A DNA stretch of 34,824 nt from Chloroflexi bacterium HGW-Chloroflexi-1 (GTDB lineage Bacteria; Chloroflexota; Anaerolineae; CG2-30-64-16). The stretch covers positions 7,520 through 42,343 of the forward strand of contig PHCA01000016.1 of the NCBI GenBank assembly GCA_002842085.1. Reading direction: 5' to 3'. The notes under the pieces are model-generated. The model saw only the letters and a program-made list of their open reading frames with translations, did not search any database and was not told where the DNA came from. Positions 5,334-18,218 of the stretch are shown one piece after another; position 1 is the stretch's first letter, and each line of letters opens with the position of its first letter. A program made the position numbers and the translations under genes.

Positions 5334-5984
5334 ATGACCGAGCCTGAAGCGCTAATTCCCAAACACGGTGGCTACCGGAACCTGAAGAGCTTCCAGGTGG
5401 CGCAACTGGTCTATGACGTCACGGTGCGGTTCTGCGACCGCTACATCGATCCGCGCAGCCGGACGCACGATCAGATGGTGCAGGCCGCGCGCAGCGGCGT
5501 CCAGAACATTGCCGAGGGGAGCCAGGCGTCGGGGACGTCGAAGAAGATGGAGCTGAAGCTGACGAATGTGGCGCGGGCCAGCCTGGAGGAGCTGAGGCTG
5601 GATTATGAGGATTTTCTGCGGCAGCGAGGACTGCCTCAATTGGCGCCGAACCACCCTGCGCTGATGCGCTTCAAAGCGAAGCGCTGTGCCACCTTGGATG
5701 AAGTACGCGCTTGGGTGGAGAAAGAACGCAGCCGGACACGGACAAACACAGATGAACAAGAACGGGTCGCTGGGGCTGAATCGTCCGTGCCGGTCGGTGG
5801 CGATCCGTGGCAGTCCCTATCCTCCTCAGTACTGGTGGCCAATGCGGCACTCTCCCTACTGAATCTCGCATGCTATCTGTTGGATCGTCAATTGGCTGCT
5901 CAAGCCGCTACCTTCGAAAAGGAAGGCGGCTTCACCGAGCGGCTCTACCGCGTCCGCAGCGCGGCACGAAAGGGCAAACCATGA
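5334..5984 (+). CDS. Four-helix-bundle protein (S23/IVP-like) with suffix domain
   Basis: A 216-residue protein. The first ~125 residues match the four-helix-bundle family related to the 23S rRNA intervening-sequence protein (SFQVAQLVYDVTVRFCDRYI, QMVQAARSGVQNIAEGS, ASLEELRLDYEDFLRQRGL). The last ~45 residues (ALSLLNLACYLLDRQ...FTERLYRVR) match the C-terminal suffix domain found in a subset of the family. The linker (about residues 125-155, ERSRTRTNTDEQ) resembles repeat-derived sequence. Start ATG 5334 has GGAG 6 nt upstream. The stop overlaps the ATG of the apparent hsdR remnant by 4 nt (ATGA), so it probably belonged to a restriction-modification operon. Molecular function is unknown. Confidence 0.8.
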   Translation: MTEPEALIPKHGGYRNLKSFQVAQLVYDVTVRFCDRYIDPRSRTHDQMVQAARSGVQNIAEGSQASGTSKKMELKLTNVARASLEELRLDYEDFLRQRGLPQLAPNHPALMRFKAKRCATLDEVRAWVEKERSRTRTNTDEQERVAGAESSVPVGGDPWQSLSSSVLVANAALSLLNLACYLLDRQLAAQAATFEKEGGFTERLYRVRSAARKGKP

Positions 5985-6150: not shown

Positions 6151-7266
6151 TCACGCCAGCAGCTCCCCTGCCATGACGTAAGCGGTCAGCTCGCTCACGC
6201 TGTGATGGGCGATGCCGAGTCTGTCCAGGGTTCGCCCGCGGCGCCAGTAGTCGGTGCGGTGGATGATGCACGCCAGGCGGATGATGGCGTCCATGCCGCG
6301 CACCGACACGCCGTGGCGCTGCCCCAGAGCGGCAATGGGTACCAGGCTCATCGGCACGTCCTCGAAGATGTAGCGGTGGTTCAGGGTGTGGGGCGCCTGG
6401 ATGCCGTAATAGCCGGTCTGATTGTGAATCGCCTCATTCAAATCCTGACCGGTGGTGCCGTAGGCCAGCTCCAGCCACTCCATGGCCGTGCGCGCGCGAA
6501 TGCCCAGGGACGCGGCCACGGTCACCCGCTCGCGATCCAGCACCTCCAGCACGCGCGCGATCGACGGGGTCACGCCGTCGACGTAGAACTGGAAATCGCC
6601 GAAGGTGGACTCGATGCGGCCGGCGTTGAGCAAGGTCAAGGTCGGGTGGAAAATGGCGCCCATGTTGTTCAGGCCCGTGTGCAACACGCTCACGCCGTCG
6701 ATGTACTGGGGATAGGCCGGCGCCAATACGGCCAGCACTTCTGGCGTACGCGTGGCGGGCAGCGCCGCCACCGGCACCGCCTCCTTGATGCGGAAAATGC
6801 GCGCCTGGGCCGGTCCCTCGGATCGGCTGGCATAGATGAAGGTTTCCGTTTCGGCGATGATGACGTCAGCAGCGCCGCCCAGGTCGCGGTAGATCTTGTC
6901 GAACTCGAGCGCACCCCCGGTGCGGCCGGGGTGCAGGACCACGATCTGCCCGTCCCGCAGGTGGGGCGCGGCGGCTCGGGCGATCTCGACGTGAGCCGAA
7001 GAGGGCACGACGACCATCACCACATCGGCCCCGGCCAGCGCCTCACCCATGTCGGAGGTGACGGCCGCCAGGTGGCCGAAGCCGTGCGGGCCTCCATCAT
7101 AACTCTCCAGATCAATGCCCCCGCGCATCTTGATGACAGCCACGTGTTCCGGCGTCCGGTTGTACAGCGTCACCCCAAAGCCCATCAGCGCCAGATGGGC
7201 CGCCATGGTCTTGCCGCCGTTGCCGGCGCCAAGGACGGTAAAACGCGTGCTTTTCTCGTCCATCAT
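6151..7266 (-). CDS. NAD(P)-dependent opine (octopine/nopaline) dehydrogenase family protein
   Basis: A 371-residue protein with an N-terminal Rossmann dinucleotide-binding motif (VLGAGNGGKTMAAHLALMG) and a C-terminal octopine-dehydrogenase domain with the characteristic LNNMGAIFHPTLTLLNAG segment near residues 195-215. Family members reductively condense an amino acid with a 2-oxo acid, or run the reverse oxidation; the substrate here is unknown. ATG 7266 is preferred over the in-frame TTG at 7269 because AGGAGGGG lies about 8 nt upstream. That site is inside the 3' end of the cobalamin-protein gene, whose stop is 3 nt upstream, so the two are likely translationally coupled. It is the last gene of the minus-strand operon. 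Confidence 0.85.
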   Translation of the reverse strand: MMDEKSTRFTVLGAGNGGKTMAAHLALMGFGVTLYNRTPEHVAVIKMRGGIDLESYDGGPHGFGHLAAVTSDMGEALAGADVVMVVVPSSAHVEIARAAAPHLRDGQIVVLHPGRTGGALEFDKIYRDLGGAADVIIAETETFIYASRSEGPAQARIFRIKEAVPVAALPATRTPEVLAVLAPAYPQYIDGVSVLHTGLNNMGAIFHPTLTLLNAGRIESTFGDFQFYVDGVTPSIARVLEVLDRERVTVAASLGIRARTAMEWLELAYGTTGQDLNEAIHNQTGYYGIQAPHTLNHRYIFEDVPMSLVPIAALGQRHGVSVRGMDAIIRLACIIHRTDYWRRGRTLDRLGIAHHSVSELTAYVMAGELLA

Positions 7267-7269
7267 CAA

Positions 7270-8931
7270 CTACCCCTCCTTTGCGTGTTGCGAATTGCGT
7301 ATAGCGTATTGCGTGCGCGGGTCCACGGCGACACAGGCGCCCCGCTCGTCGATCCGCGTGCTGATCTGGCCGCGGGCAAAACGATTGGCCTTGAGATGCG
7401 GCGCGTCGAGCAGACCCGAAGTCACGGCGCGAGCCAGGGTCCGCGGGTCGGTCAGGGGATCGGCCACGCCCGGCCCGGCCAGCCCTCGCATGGCCTCCAG
7501 CGTGACCTGCGCTTCGGCGATCAGCTCGGCCTGGCGCGCTTGCACTCGTGGATCAAAAGCCATGTCCGGGGCGCCGCGGAGCGCGTTTTCGATGGCGCGC
7601 CGCGCCACTTTACAGGCGGCGATCACGTCATCGGCGGTGGCGGCGTGGTCGGCTTCGGTGTGGCCAACCACGTGGACGATGTGGGGCTTGAGCGTCATCT
7701 GGAGATAGGTGGCCGCGGCCAGGTGCCCGCGCGCGGCCTCGGGATCCAGGGGATAGCTCAACAGGCCAACCCGCGTTTGCCGCCAGATGCGAAAAGTGTC
7801 ATCTTGACCCGCGTTCCCGGCCCCAACTTCACCTCCAATGATGAGAGTCAGGATAGCGAGCATCTTGGCCAGGTCCATCGCATCGGAGAGGCCGGGCGGG
7901 CTGTTGAACATCATCTGGGCGATGTAGTCGCGGACGCCGAAGGCGCGGGCGTTATAGGCCGCCAGGTACGCCGCCACCACGTAGATCACGTCGGGGGCGT
8001 CGCGCATGCCCCAGTGGTGGGGCTCGTTGAGCTCGACCGGGATGCCGCGTGCGCCGTACCACGCTATGAGCTGTTGATGCTCGCGGATGGAGGATTCTAA
8101 ATCGTGCGGGCCGCGGCCGTCCATCGCGTTGAACCAGAACAGCGGCACCGCGGCCCAGGCGATGTGGAGGGTCGCCACGTACATCTCGGCCAGCCGGATG
8201 AGGTCGTCGGCGCCGGAGTAGGTGCGCATCAGGGGGAAGTTGCCGCGGCGGGAGGCCGCGTACAGCGCCCGATAATCGTCGGCGTTGCGCACGGGCACGC
8301 CGCCGGCGCCCGTGCGCCGCGGGTCCTGCCTCTCGGGGTGGTAGAAGTTCTCCTGGGCGTCCTGGTCGATGCCCAGCGAGATGACATCCAGCACCCGGGC
8401 CGCGGCGATCCGCTCGATCCCATGCCGGGTCGCTTTTAACGTGGGCAGCCCGAAGTGGTGCCGCAGCAGTGGGTAGGGGGCTTTCCCGGCGATGCGATCG
8501 ACCAGGGTTTGCGGGTAATCGGCCGCGGTGGCGGTGCGGGGCGCCCCACGCAAATAGGCCAGGACGTCGTCCGGCGTCTCGGCGCCGTCGAAAACAGCGT
8601 CGAAGAAGCCTGGGAAAGCCCTGGCCCGCTCGGCGACCGGGGGCGTGCCGCCGAAGGCAAACCGCACGCCGGCCGCGTGCAATTCATCGGCAGCTTCGGC
8701 GAATTCGGCCAGCAGCCGCTCGCCTGTCTCCGGGGTCAAGCGGTAGGAAACGCCCACCAACGCCGCTCCCTGGGCGCGCGCCGCGCGCAACATCTCCTCG
8801 ACCGGCACGGCTGGCCCCAGGAAAACAGTCCGCCAACCGGCCTGCTCAGCAAGACGCAAGAAGTTCACCACGCCGGCCACGTGGACGCACTCGCCCAACG
8901 CGCCGGCCACAACGACTGGCTGTGGGTTCAT
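7270..8931 (-). CDS. Cobalamin-binding-domain enzyme, probable mutase-like protein
   Basis: A 553-residue protein. Residues 1-135 look like a B12-binding Rossmann-type domain: ALGECVHVAG contains the histidine (His17) and HxxG of the DxHxxG cobalamin-ligand motif, then ALVGVSYRLTPE and FGGTPP, where this fold usually has its GG turn. Position D of the motif is Cys15 here. The remaining ~400 residues are mixed alpha/beta (SLGIDQDAQENFYHPE, AMDGRGPHDLE, ELNEPHHWGMRDAPD, FRIWRQTRVGLLSYPLDP) and could be a TIM barrel of the adenosylcobalamin amino-acid mutase type, but I cannot assign a specific reaction. The gene is 9 nt downstream of the c-di-AMP-receptor gene. The C-terminal ~15 residues come from a heptamer repeat, so the natural end may have been changed. 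A methyltransferase-type role is the main alternative. Confidence 0.7.
   Translation of the reverse strand: MNPQPVVVAGALGECVHVAGVVNFLRLAEQAGWRTVFLGPAVPVEEMLRAARAQGAALVGVSYRLTPETGERLLAEFAEAADELHAAGVRFAFGGTPPVAERARAFPGFFDAVFDGAETPDDVLAYLRGAPRTATAADYPQTLVDRIAGKAPYPLLRHHFGLPTLKATRHGIERIAAARVLDVISLGIDQDAQENFYHPERQDPRRTGAGGVPVRNADDYRALYAASRRGNFPLMRTYSGADDLIRLAEMYVATLHIAWAAVPLFWFNAMDGRGPHDLESSIREHQQLIAWYGARGIPVELNEPHHWGMRDAPDVIYVVAAYLAAYNARAFGVRDYIAQMMFNSPPGLSDAMDLAKMLAILTLIIGGEVGAGNAGQDDTFRIWRQTRVGLLSYPLDPEAARGHLAAATYLQMTLKPHIVHVVGHTEADHAATADDVIAACKVARRAIENALRGAPDMAFDPRVQARQAELIAEAQVTLEAMRGLAGPGVADPLTDPRTLARAVTSGLLDAPHLKANRFARGQISTRIDERGACVAVDPRTQYAIRNSQHAKEG
7281..7315. repeat. Heptamer tandem repeat (TTGCGTR-type, 5 units)
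   Basis: Five degenerate 7-nt units (TTGCGTG, TTGCGAA, TTGCGTA, TAGCGTA, TTGCGTG). On the minus strand it codes the last residues of the cobalamin-binding protein (RTQYAIRNSQHA) and lies just upstream of the ribosome binding site of the next gene. It belongs to the same heptamer family as 13761-13795 and 24719-24753. Confidence 0.8.
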
Positions 8932-8940
8932 GGGATATCG

Positions 8941-9645
8941 CTAGACCCGAATCAGCCGCGAGGCGTCCAACACAAAAATGGTCGCGCTGTGCATCGGCAT
9001 GCCGGTCTCCAACGGGCTGGGTTCCTCGCGGCGCCGGCAATTGGCCTTGATGATCTCCAGCACTGCATCCACTTTAGCCTCCTCGACCCCGATCAGTAGC
9101 GTAACGTTGCCGCGGCGCAAAAAGGCCCCGGCGGTGTTGATGCGCGTCACCCGATAACTGGCCCCCAACAGCGCCTGGGTCACGGGGTCGGCGTCGTCAT
9201 TTTGGACCAGGGCAAGCACAAGATTCATGCGTTCGGCTCCTTCCAGGGCAGCGGCGGTCGGCCCTGCCTCACCTCGAGGAGGCAGTGTCTCGCCGGTTTC
9301 TTTGACGGGGACGCGCAGAAAACGTTTGACCGGGAAGGTCAACACGGTCGCGCCGCCAATCTGCACCTCCAGCGGCATGGCCGGCGCGGCCAGCGCGAGA
9401 TGGATCGGCTCGGTGCCCAGCGGCGTGGGGTTGATGTAACTACGCCGCGTGTGACAAGTCGCTTGGATCACCGCCAACACAGCCTCGACCTGTTCGTCTT
9501 CCACGCCCACCAGGATCGTGAGGTTGCCGCGCGCGAGAAAGCCACCCACGGTGCTGATCCGGGTGACCCGGAACCCTTTGGCGTTGAGCCGCTTGCACAG
9601 GGTATCGGCATCTTCGTCCTGGACAATCGCGAGCAAGAGTTGCAT
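8941..9645 (-). CDS. Tandem PII-like cyclic-di-AMP receptor (two DUF970 domains)
   Basis: A 234-residue protein made of two copies of the DUF970/PstA (DarA) fold, each normally a stand-alone protein of ~110 residues. Copy 1 has MQLLLAIVQDEDADTLCKRL, RVTRISTVGGFLARGN and TILVGVEDEQVEAVL. Copy 2 (from about residue 139) has MNLVLALVQNDDADPVTQAL, RVTRINTAGAFLRRGN and TLLIGVEEAKVDAVLEIIK. The RVT..T.G.FL.RGN segment is the region that contacts c-di-AMP in characterised members. A trimer of single domains is normal for the family, so a duplicated chain implies different assembly. ATG 9645 is chosen because AAAGGGAG lies 7 nt upstream; upstream codons are repeat-derived. It is first in an operon with the cobalamin and opine-dehydrogenase genes, suggesting second-messenger control of that metabolism. 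Confidence 0.85.
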   Translation of the reverse strand: MQLLLAIVQDEDADTLCKRLNAKGFRVTRISTVGGFLARGNLTILVGVEDEQVEAVLAVIQATCHTRRSYINPTPLGTEPIHLALAAPAMPLEVQIGGATVLTFPVKRFLRVPVKETGETLPPRGEAGPTAAALEGAERMNLVLALVQNDDADPVTQALLGASYRVTRINTAGAFLRRGNVTLLIGVEEAKVDAVLEIIKANCRRREEPSPLETGMPMHSATIFVLDASRLIRV

Positions 9646-9663
9646 CGGCATCTCCCTTTCAAG

Positions 9664-9787
9664 GTATCCTCTCAAGCGACAGCCATAATCCGGGGTGGCT
9701 GTGGCCGGTCTCCTGACCGAGCCACGGTGGCTCGGTCAGGAGACCGGCCACAGCGAGCGATGATTCCCCGAAAAATTGAGAAGATAC
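9664..9787. repeat. 124-bp palindromic element (REPIN/MITE-like) in operon leader
   Basis: The element is bounded by GTATC (9664-9668) and GATAC (9783-9787). It has a perfect 28-bp core inverted repeat (9698-9725 with 9727-9754, 1-nt centre) and imperfect outer arms. Each core arm is itself a hairpin (GCTGTGGC...GCCACAGC with CGGTC/GACCG inside). Related copies are at 17740-17796 and, as one half, at 18161-18218. It lies between the minus-strand promoter (9825-9853) and the ribosome binding site of the DUF970 gene, so it should be transcribed into the leader. Confidence 0.85.
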
Positions 9788-9824
9788 ATCAATACCACCA
9801 ACCGGGGGACTCAATCCTGGCATG

Positions 9825-9853
9825 ACTATACCATAACTGGATTGGGGCGTCAA
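9825..9853 (-). promoter_or_regulatory. Sigma70-like promoter of the DUF970/cobalamin/opine-dehydrogenase operon
   Basis: On the minus strand, TTGACG (9853-9848) and TATAGT (9830-9825) are separated by exactly 17 nt. The predicted transcript start is near 9818, giving a leader of about 170 nt that contains the palindromic element. Confidence 0.6.
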
Positions 9854-9863
9854 ACAGTTTCAG

Positions 9864-9892
9864 TTACGAATTAAAGCCAACTGTGCTATAAT
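9864..9892 (+). promoter_or_regulatory. Sigma70-like extended -10 promoter of the CBS/NhaD operon
   Basis: TTACGA (9864-9869), a 17-nt spacer and TATAAT (9887-9892), preceded by the extended -10 TGC. Its -35 lies only 10 bp from the -35 of the opposing promoter, so both could share a control region. The predicted leader is about 275 nt. Confidence 0.55.
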
Positions 9893-9920
9893 ACACCCTG
9901 ATTGCGCGGTCCGGGAGGAC

Positions 9921-10140
9921 GGTTGCGGATTGCGGATTGCGGACTGCGGATTCTGGAGCTTCAATCCGAAATCCGAAATCCGTTTAGGGCTAAGGACTAA
10001 ATAACTTACTCATCTGCTCCGGCAAATGAAGGGGGGACTTGCGCAAGTTATTTAATTCTCAGTCCTTAGGGCGCAATCGTTCTCAACTCCCAGGGGAAAA
10101 TTCGCCACGAATTGCACGAATTGGCACGAAAATAGAAGCC
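9921..10140. repeat. Repeat-rich leader before the CBS-protein gene
   Basis: The leader contains, in order: four TTGCGGA heptamers (9923-9950); three AATCCGA heptamers (9963-9982); an imperfect inverted repeat of CTAAGGACT/AAATAACTT (9990-10007) with AAGTTATTT...AGTCCTTAG (10035-10059), where the right arm carries a 7-nt insertion; and a CACGAATTGCACGAATTGG direct repeat near 10107-10130. I see no gene in this stretch. Confidence 0.65.
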
Positions 10141-10173
10141 ACCGTCAGGCGGCGAAATTAAGGAGCTGACTGA

Positions 10174-11061
10174 ATGTCTCAACTACTGATCGTGATCCTC
10201 GACGACCTGAAACCCTTACCGGATTTGCTCCAGGCCTGGCGCGCTATCGGCGTGTCGGGCGCGACCATCCTCGAAAGCGTGGGGGCCTATCGCGCCGAAA
10301 ACTGGCTGAGTCGGGCCGGCCTGGGCGCGTTGAGCCGCCTGTTCGAAGCCGAAGAGGTGCGCCGGCGCACGATCCTGACCGTGGTAGACGACGACCTGCT
10401 GGACGTAGCGATCGCGGAGACGGACCGGGTAGTCGGCGGCTTCGACCGGCCGAACACCGGCGTCATATTCGCCGTGCCGATCACTCGTTCGATAGGCACG
10501 CGCCTCAGGCCGGCGGAGACGACAGCACGGACCTTGCCGCCCGCGGTCAAGGCCGGCTGGCTGGGCCAGCGCGACACACCGGTGGAGAAGATCGCGGCGA
10601 CGTTGGACCTGCAGCCCGTCATCGTGCGGACCGACACCCCATTGGATGGCGTGATCCAGGAGATGCTCAAATCCCCCAACGTCCACGTGGCTTGCGTCAT
10701 GTCAGGCGAGGGGCGGTTGGTAGGATTGTTATCTTTGCAGGCACTCGCCGATCACCTCTTCTTCCACATCCTGCCGGAGGAATTCTTGAGCGAGGTCACC
10801 GACCTGGAGCGCGTCATGGAGTTCGCGGACCGCAGCCGCATGCAGTTGGCCGCGGATGCCATGCAGGAGCCGGTGTGGGTCAAGCGCGGGGAGACGGCGA
10901 AGGATGCCTTCAAACGCATGCACGAGCAGCGCATCAGTGGGCTGCCGGTGGTGGATGACCACTATCACGTCGTGGGCTACATCAATCTGCTGGAGCTGCT
11001 GGCGGTGTGCGCGGCGGACCAGGACCCGACCACGCAGGGCGCGGGAGGATCGCGTCCATGA
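10174..11061 (+). CDS. PII-like / tandem CBS domain regulatory protein
   Basis: A 295-residue soluble protein. Residues 1-105 resemble a PII-like ferredoxin-type fold (QLLIVILDDLKPLPDLLQAW, GVSGATILESVGAYR, RRTILTVVDDDLLDVAIAE, NTGVIFAVPITRSIG). Residues ~148-197 and ~228-280 are CBS motifs (VIVRTDTPLDGVIQEML...GLLSLQALADHL; WVKRGETAKDAFKRMHEQ...GYINLLELL). CBS pairs bind adenine nucleotides (ATP, AMP, c-di-AMP or SAM) and often gate transporters. The gene overlaps the downstream ion-transporter gene by 4 nt (ATGA), so the natural inference is a nucleotide-sensing regulator of that transporter. The bound ligand is unknown. Confidence 0.8.
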   Translation: MSQLLIVILDDLKPLPDLLQAWRAIGVSGATILESVGAYRAENWLSRAGLGALSRLFEAEEVRRRTILTVVDDDLLDVAIAETDRVVGGFDRPNTGVIFAVPITRSIGTRLRPAETTARTLPPAVKAGWLGQRDTPVEKIAATLDLQPVIVRTDTPLDGVIQEMLKSPNVHVACVMSGEGRLVGLLSLQALADHLFFHILPEEFLSEVTDLERVMEFADRSRMQLAADAMQEPVWVKRGETAKDAFKRMHEQRISGLPVVDDHYHVVGYINLLELLAVCAADQDPTTQGAGGSRP

Positions 11062-12371
11062 ACCTGGTGTGGATCACCGGAGGCGTCTTCCTGATCACCT
11101 ACGCCCTCATCGTGACGGAACGGGTCCATCGCACTCTGGCCGCGTTGCTGGGCGGTGTCGTCGTGCTCCTGCTGGGCGTACTCCCGCAAGATCAGGCGTT
11201 TGCCGCAGTGGACTGGAACGTGATCTTCCTGCTGGCGGGGATGATGGCCATCGCCAACGTGCTGCGCGAGACCGGCCTTTTCCAGTGGATCGCGGTGCAG
11301 GCCGTGCGCCTGGGGCGAGGCAGACCGTTCCTCATCCTGGTCATCCTGTCGTTGGTCACGGCCGTCAGCTCAGCCCTGCTTGACAACGTCACCATCGTCG
11401 TGCTGGTCGCGCCCGTGACCCTCTTCGTGGCCGCCAGCCTGCGGGTCAGCCCCGTGCCGTTTCTGATCGCCGAGATCCTGGCCTCCAACATCGGCGGCGC
11501 GGCCACCCTGATCGGCGACCCGCCCAACATCCTGATCGGCAGCGCGGCCGACCTGGATTTCCTCACGTTCGGCAAAAACATGGCGCCGATCAGCATGATA
11601 ATCCTGATCGGCTTTCTGATCATGGCGTGGTTCCTCTTCAGGAAGGATCTGCGCGTACAGCCGAAGACCCCCCGCGCGACCGGGGAGAGCGCGGCCCCTG
11701 CCGCGGCGGAGGCCGACGCACTGTCGAACCTGCTGGCGCTGGATACGGCCGCGCTGATCACCAACCGCGGCATGTTGCTCCGCGGGCTGATCGTGATGGG
11801 CGGGGTCATCGTGGGCTTCACGGTGCACGGGTTACTCCATTTGCAGCCCGCGACCATCGCCCTGACGGGCGCCACAGTGCTCATGCTCTGGACCCGCAAA
11901 GACCCGCACCACGTGTTGCGCGATGTGGAGTGGACCACCCTCTTCTTCTTCATCGGTCTGTTCATCCTCATCGAGGCCGTAGTACATGTCGGGATCATCG
12001 ATAGCGTGGCCCGGGCCGCGCTGCGGCTGACCGGTGGCAACGTCCGGTTCACCACGATCTTACTGCTCTGGCTTTCGGCCGTGGCCTCCGGCGTCGTGGA
12101 CAACATCCCGTACACAGCCACCATGATCCCCGTCGTCAAGAGCCTGGCGGTCAGCATGCCGGCCGAGCCGCTCTGGTGGTCGCTGGCCCTGGGCGCCTGC
12201 CTGGGTGGCAATTCGACGCTCGTGGGCGCGTCGGCCAACGTCGTCGTTGCCAGCCTGGCCGAGCGCAGCGGGCATCGCATCAGCTTCAAGACCTTCTTGA
12301 TCTACGGGTTGCCCGTGACACTGATGTCGCTGCTCCTGGCGACCGCGTACGTGTGGGTGCGCTATTTATAG
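11058..12371 (+). CDS. ArsB/NhaD (SLC13-type) ion transporter
   Basis: A 437-residue integral membrane protein with about 11 hydrophobic segments. It has the ion-transporter superfamily signatures: SNIGGAATLIGDPPNILIG in the first half, and paired DN motifs (ALLDNVTIVVLV and GVVDNIPYTATM), typical of ArsB/NhaD/P-protein members. A charged, alanine-rich cytoplasmic linker (near residues 205-225) separates the halves. The start at 11058 overlaps the CBS gene stop (ATGA); an upstream in-frame start would add 17 unlikely residues. It could be a Na+/H+ antiporter, an oxyanion or a dicarboxylate transporter; the sequence alone does not decide. No ars genes are nearby. Confidence 0.85.
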   Translation: MNLVWITGGVFLITYALIVTERVHRTLAALLGGVVVLLLGVLPQDQAFAAVDWNVIFLLAGMMAIANVLRETGLFQWIAVQAVRLGRGRPFLILVILSLVTAVSSALLDNVTIVVLVAPVTLFVAASLRVSPVPFLIAEILASNIGGAATLIGDPPNILIGSAADLDFLTFGKNMAPISMIILIGFLIMAWFLFRKDLRVQPKTPRATGESAAPAAAEADALSNLLALDTAALITNRGMLLRGLIVMGGVIVGFTVHGLLHLQPATIALTGATVLMLWTRKDPHHVLRDVEWTTLFFFIGLFILIEAVVHVGIIDSVARAALRLTGGNVRFTTILLLWLSAVASGVVDNIPYTATMIPVVKSLAVSMPAEPLWWSLALGACLGGNSTLVGASANVVVASLAERSGHRISFKTFLIYGLPVTLMSLLLATAYVWVRYL

Positions 12372-17739: not shown

Positions 17740-17796
17740 GCTGTGGCCGGTCTCCTGACCGAGCCACCGTGGCTCGGTCAGGAGACCGGCCACAGC
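17740..17796. repeat. REPIN-like palindrome (28-bp arms)
   Basis: A perfect 28-bp inverted repeat (17740-17767 with 17769-17796, 1-nt centre), identical in its arms to the core at 9698-9754. It starts 17 bp after the DUF4340 stop, so it may act as a transcription terminator or mRNA 3'-end stabiliser for the exporter operon. Confidence 0.9.
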
Positions 17797-18160: not shown

Positions 18161-18218
18161 GTATCTTCTCAATTTTTCAGGGAATCGCTCGCTGTGGCCG
18201 GTCTCCTGACCGAGCCAC
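18161..18218. repeat. Half copy of the palindromic element
   Basis: From GTATCTTCTC through the 28-nt hairpin unit ending at 18218, this copy matches the right half of the 9664-9787 element (reverse complement) almost base for base. It is followed by AGCGGC instead of the second arm. It forms one hairpin with a 13-bp stem (GCTGTGGC-CGGTC / GACCG-A-GCCACAGC), like a single REP unit, just after the ferredoxin gene. Confidence 0.85.

Follow-up and report, generated by a model that had tools for sequence, protein, structure and literature searches.

The window, the whole stretch of 34,824 nucleotides that was analysed, comes from an Anaerolineae (Chloroflexota) MAG of 4.45 Mb in 419 contigs. The first-pass annotation had described five genes in two divergent groups, and all five were found where it had placed them and on the strands it had assigned. 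The genes and the elements between them are as follows.

6151..7269, minus strand: A, predicted opine dehydrogenase (Octopine_DH, 6.7e-47; 1bg6, E 2.4e-77)
7270..8931, minus strand: B, predicted single-chain mutase with a B12-binding (MutS-like) part and a MutE-like barrel (B12-binding, 7e-11; AF2 model)
8941..9645 (open reading frame to 9675), minus strand: C, tandem DarA/PstA-type cyclic-di-AMP receptor (two CdAMP_rec, 1e-53)
9687..9765, no strand: leader of C, inverted repeat with 39-nt arms (belongs to a dispersed repeat element)
9825..9853, minus strand: promoter-like site for C-B-A (TTGACG-17-TATAGT with extended -10; consensus scan)
9887..9892, plus strand: TATAAT, possible -10 for D-E (read in the sequence)
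10174..11061, plus strand: D, PII-like domain (~1-115) and CBS pair (~135-280) (CBS, 2e-16; AF2; alignment)
11058..12371, plus strand: E, CitMHS/ArsB/NhaD-type transporter (CitMHS 4.6e-94, MamN 6e-67, NhaD 6e-8)

On the minus strand C lies 9 nt from B, and B and A are separated by 0 nt, spacings that make a C-B-A operon plausible; C probably starts at 9645, as judged by its ribosome-binding site, the first start of the open reading frame being at 9675. On the plus strand the ATG of E overlaps the stop of D (11058-11061), which is the ATGA coupling that had been claimed for this pair. Between C and D is a divergent region of about 500 nt that contains one promoter-like site, one TATAAT and a palindromic repeat. 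The back-to-back promoters described earlier are supported in part, by the promoter-like TTGACG-17-TATAGT (9853..9825, minus strand) on the C side, the one site found by the consensus scan against 0.4 expected; on the D-E side a bare TATAAT with no good -35 was left unflagged by the same scan. The repeat in C's leader is a palindromic copy of a dispersed element. Riboswitch control was rejected, as neither ydaO nor any other Rfam family passed its gathering threshold, either in the window or at six loci.

C matches Pfam CdAMP_rec in two stretches (180.6 bits against a curated cut-off of 27, E 1e-53) and the NCBIfam DarA equivalog NF058593 (189 bits against a cut-off of 140, E 2e-56). PstA structures match it at E 1e-22, and each half separately matches PstA/DarA, so that the "double DUF970 protein" of the first-pass annotation is a protein with two CdAMP_rec domains and the sensor families had been named correctly. 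In Staphylococcus aureus PstA, mutagenesis has shown that T28, the GGFL loop and N41 are important for c-di-AMP binding (PMC4316997). Residue comparison finds all three intact in the first half of C; the second half keeps T28 and N41, with the loop altered to GAFL and HSA replacing GGA. The diadenylate cyclase that the same annotation proposed to look for is present in the genome as a CdaA-type enzyme, encoded by a cdaA gene that is followed by a ybbR-like gene (ybbR being named from a reading of its sequence), and a separate, canonical single-domain DarA is encoded at C52. Because the binding motif is kept and the genome has CdaA, the signal read by C is likely to be c-di-AMP.

D contains two CBS repeats that form a pair (Pfam, E 2e-16), and its AF2 model matches CBS pairs including that of OpuCA with c-di-AMP (5ks7, E 1.2e-8). 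D itself has no Pfam P-II match; its N-terminal ~115 residues fall in a family in which single-domain relatives do match P-II (1e-6 and 2e-5), and the AF2 model of the N-terminal part is moderate. E is CitMHS/ArsB by Pfam, in keeping with the ArsB/NhaD-type transporter proposed for it. Its best NCBIfam matches are MamN, ArsB and NhaD, none of which reaches its cut-off (MamN 226 bits against 500, ArsB 90 against 457, NhaD_1 32 against 80), and we regard E as a predicted member of the superfamily that is Na+/H+-antiporter-like and falls within no curated subfamily. Members of PF03600 also transport citrate, arsenite and other anions. In 9/9 genomes with a full-length D, eight relatives and that of the window, E comes after it, and in all eight relatives the pair sits away from B-A.

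The cobalamin-binding and opine-dehydrogenase-like enzymes of the first-pass annotation are likewise borne out by profile matches. B matches Pfam B12-binding (7e-11) and, weakly and toward its C terminus, MutE (E 1e-3). The MutE match of 18.2 bits lies under the cut-off of 26.6, and a genome search with PF06368 did not recover B. The AF2 model of B (mean pLDDT 84.9) has glutamate mutase chain E as its best PDB match (1cb7_B, E 2.9e-16, TM 0.57/0.65), its B12 domain matches the S chain of glutamate mutase (1i9c_A), and hhalign against real MutE proteins gave 94.5% over 389 columns. On these grounds B is predicted to be a one-chain B12 enzyme of the glutamate-mutase fold, remotely homologous to MutE. 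Its B12 motif is CxHxxG instead of DxHxxG, with the lower-ligand His and the Gly kept, and EC.H..G recurs in 87/93 relatives; on this motif and the sub-threshold MutE profile match, the reading of B as a bona fide glutamate mutase was rejected. The arginines that we take to form the glutamate-binding claw of MutE have no clear counterparts in B, as judged from the MutE profile alignment, and the substrate may therefore not be glutamate. No MutL chaperone was found in the window genome; elsewhere MutL lies within the same gene run as the B homologue (L061 and L062) or is fused to it (L080).

A scores 159.7 bits against a cut-off of 30 for Octopine_DH (E 6.7e-47), with the Octopine_DH and Rossmann domains both above cut-off, and its closest solved relative is N-(1-D-carboxyethyl)-L-norvaline dehydrogenase (1bg6, E 2.4e-77, residues 7-355). 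The two enzymes travel together. There are 408 relatives of B in GTDB, and A lies within 400 bp of B in 77 of 80 GTDB loci; among 60 relatives, B and A occur in essentially the same genomes and adjoin each other wherever a single contig carries both, while in G003 and G015 they fall on two. The pair is also present in a cultured relative, Anaerolinea thermolimosa (L109). The pair had no match in the open-access literature searched. A peptide-type ABC importer adjoins B-A in L061, L062 and L080, an arrangement that would rather fit a catabolic role.

The literal five-gene set was found nowhere else among the 60 relatives and 80 GTDB loci sampled: D-E stands beside C-B-A in this genome alone. 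An ancestral conserved block was rejected, since every other genome with D-E carries the pair at another place. The first-pass annotation had named the lack of such neighbours in relatives as a refutation; that outcome applies to the literal set of five and not to a functional one in which other antiporters stand in. In L042 (G007) an NHX gene diverges from C-B-A in the very place of D-E; in L058 this place is taken by a CitMHS fragment together with an RpiR-type regulator.

The pairing of sensors with antiporters recurs in the Chloroflexota. Of the small PII-like genes matched in a phylum sample drawn regardless of B, all (21/21, the window's D and a further PII-CBS protein among them) have an NHX, NCX or NhaD-type transporter as neighbour; a second search independent of B gave 11/11 beside an antiporter. 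Runs of NHX-PII-CdAR-CdAR occur in five loci (L056/L284, L282, L283, L285 and L139), and in L139, L151/L192 and L191 a C-terminal CdAMP_rec domain is fused to the Na_H_Exchanger itself. The fusions are limited to a few genomes of one lineage, the same family occurs unfused in L193 as neighbouring NHX, CdAR and short CdAR genes, and no viral relatives of the fused antiporter were found. Canonical DarA genes were ruled out as antiporter neighbours (0/30), so that the association is specific to the DarA paralogues.

The same families gather around B-A. Within 8 kb of B-A at 80 loci, five antiporter and sensor families turned up 44 times over 861 kb, whereas 800 kb of arbitrary DNA yielded 0. In this comparison the loci lack independence, contigs often stop near B, and the background consists of few stretches (arbitrary 20-kb pieces of six single-contig genomes and one more stretch). 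One of the neighbours, in L147, is an NHX-TrkA_N-TrkA_C protein, the architecture of CpaA. A chance arrangement of five functionally unrelated genes would agree with the uniqueness of the exact set among the samples searched, but the conserved sub-units B-A and D-E and the enrichment near B-A make this very improbable.

Placed on a tree of B, 23 loci are linked to a sensor or antiporter and 23 are unlinked, with 10 changes of state and 35 loci left unjudged at contig ends. These changes suggest that the linkage arose and/or was lost repeatedly, with differing antiporters and gene orders, and the 23/46 assessable loci that have none nearby indicate that B-A can work without sensors and antiporters. 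It is here that a second explanation has to be weighed, in which the sensor-antiporter module is real and B-A is merely a frequent Anaerolineae neighbour, through shared ancestry of the region or a common hot spot in the genome, and does not answer to the same signal. The module is missing at half of the B-A loci that could be assessed, PII-like/antiporter pairs occur in many genomes that have no B-A, and C lies beside NHX or NCX in two genomes, G005 and G008, that lack B. However, in the window, L042, L045, L057 and L058 B is directly preceded, on its own strand, by C or by a small PII-like gene, a CdAR gene heads the MutL-opDH-opDH-B run of L061/L062, and the 10 changes and varied orders are not those of a single frozen ancestral arrangement. 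We consider this explanation possible and, given these arrangements, rather unlikely.

The closeness of C to B invites the converse proposal, that C serves B-A by bringing it under c-di-AMP control and that D-E is a separate, adenylate-gated transporter adjacent by chance. The 9-nt gap, the separate placement of D-E in the eight relatives that encode the pair and, in L061/L062, a CdAR gene grouped with those for MutL, opDH and B all speak for it, as does the suggestion that DarA of Bacillus subtilis is linked to glutamate metabolism (PMC7857571). Yet homologues of C adjoin NHX or NCX where B-A is absent, and NHX occurs fused to a DarA domain; the proposal seems to us doubtful.

On balance, and from sequence and gene context, we think it more likely than not that the window locus belongs to a recurring Chloroflexota module for ion homeostasis, in which sensors would control antiporters and B-A would be a co-located amino-acid or opine pathway. 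Counting against it are the altered loop in the second half of C, the small number of genomes with fusions, the B-A loci that have no sensor or antiporter nearby, the restriction of D-E beside C-B-A to one genome, the anions carried by other PF03600 members and the unclear match of B to the MutE claw. Coupling of sensor to antiporter is well supported by the gene arrangements, and joint control of B-A with ion transport is what we infer from them. In this module D and C, as predicted PII-fold adenine-nucleotide sensors, would control adjacent cation antiporters (here E; elsewhere NHX/CPA, NCX/CaCA or NhaD-type), the step best supported because of the fusion and the near-perfect adjacency. D would bind AMP/ATP or c-di-AMP; C would bind c-di-AMP, which the genome's CdaA would supply, and report it to the C-B-A operon and/or the antiporter. 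The sensors may act on the transporter through protein contact, as in GlnK-AmtB and SbtB-SbtA, and E would exchange Na+/K+ for H+. B would carry out the adenosylcobalamin-type carbon-skeleton mutase step of the two-enzyme unit, and A would link amino acid and 2-keto acid or cleave the product. B-A would then most likely form or remove an anionic amino-acid or opine solute that tracks the cation balance, a role suggested by its fold, pairing and neighbourhood, and it is perhaps an osmolyte pathway. The fullest version, in which Chloroflexota DarA and PII-like proteins are gating subunits of antiporters and the same c-di-AMP signal controls an unrecognised B12-mutase/opine-dehydrogenase pathway for an amino-acid-derived counter-ion or osmolyte, is speculative, and we would not expect it to hold in full; were it true, it would at once give DarA-type receptors a class of targets and reveal a new osmolyte route.

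The locus is no new kind of machine; the combination and the domain fusion are apparently undescribed. DarA/PstA is a widespread c-di-AMP receptor for which PMC7900238 and PMC7857571 give no known function, and the NHX-DarA fusions, together with operons containing antiporters or the glutamate-mutase-like enzyme, name candidate targets for it. These candidates fit the K+ and glutamate phenotypes of B. subtilis, where homeostasis of both is under c-di-AMP control (PMC7857571), and through the paralogues the role of DarA-type receptors becomes a testable question. B-A is in addition a broadly conserved, uncharacterised B12 enzyme system.

C is of the same family as DarA/PstA of Bacillus, Staphylococcus and Listeria (PF06153/NF058593), with T28..GGFL..N41 and the PII fold, but it is a two-domain tandem inside an enzyme operon, and its relatives adjoin antiporters or are fused to them. 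B has the fold of glutamate mutase (MutS/MutE with MutL), including S and E parts, and in distant relatives (L061, L062, and L080 by fusion) it has MutL as a partner. It differs in joining S and E in one chain, in CxHxxG for DxHxxG, in the lack of a detectable MutL in the window genome and in substrate-binding residues that appear to have changed. A is homologous over nearly its whole length to the CENDH-type opine dehydrogenase of Arthrobacter (1bg6), from which it differs in being paired with B. As in GlnK-AmtB and SbtB-SbtA, a small PII-like protein and a membrane transporter share one operon, and SbtB binds AMP, ATP, cAMP and c-di-AMP (PMC10117731); in contrast to both, the Chloroflexota partners are antiporters drawn from three unrelated families, D has an extra CBS pair, and the sequences are only distantly PII-like. 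The closest parallel on the transporter side is with c-di-AMP-gated cation/proton antiporters, namely CpaA and the NhaS pull-down hits from Synechocystis (PMC10117731). Like CpaA, the Chloroflexota systems place a predicted cytosolic nucleotide-binding module on an NHX-type antiporter; in place of RCK/TrkA_C, however, they use either a DarA domain or a PII-like protein encoded separately.

In the one-chain B12 enzyme of glutamate-mutase fold (B, window 7270-8931) and its relatives, Cys replaces the Asp of the DxHxxG cobalamin motif virtually family-wide. One related locus joins a B homologue to MutL, the partner of glutamate mutase:

L080:5524-19651, MutL fused to a B homologue, then an opine dehydrogenase

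This stretch continues with a peptide-type ABC transporter (SBP_bac_5) and an MTTB methyltransferase, and in it a tandem DarA domain and an AAT acyltransferase domain share a single open frame.

Other neighbours accompany the tandem DarA genes and the window's opine dehydrogenase gene (A):

L065:6231-7493 and L066:2189-3451, tandem DarA gene adjoining a mandelate racemase/enolase-superfamily enzyme
window 5334-5984, a protein similar to the four-helix 23S rRNA-intervening-sequence family, scoring slightly below its cut-off

Both genomes with the first pairing belong to the window's own family; the second gene has A on one side and a gene for a papain-like protease on the other.

A dispersed palindromic element, GGCCGGTCTCCTGACCG, has eight near matches against 0.27 expected, and the leader of the tandem DarA receptor gene carries one copy:

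window 9687-9765, 17745-17791 and 18196-18212, copies paired as inverted repeats

The DarA (CdAMP_rec) domain is also found fused to the C terminus of Na+/H+ exchangers:

L139:15003-16904, L151:3795-5855 and L191:1384-3399, exchanger-DarA fusions

B-A lies near or adjoins the fusion gene in L139 and L151. A short DarA-like companion gene is close to the fusion, with N41, a ligand-binding residue in S. aureus PstA, changed to Val in L139/L151. In L147, the gene immediately downstream of B-A codes an exchanger of CpaA-like architecture:

L147:12833-14851, NHX-TrkA_N-TrkA_C protein
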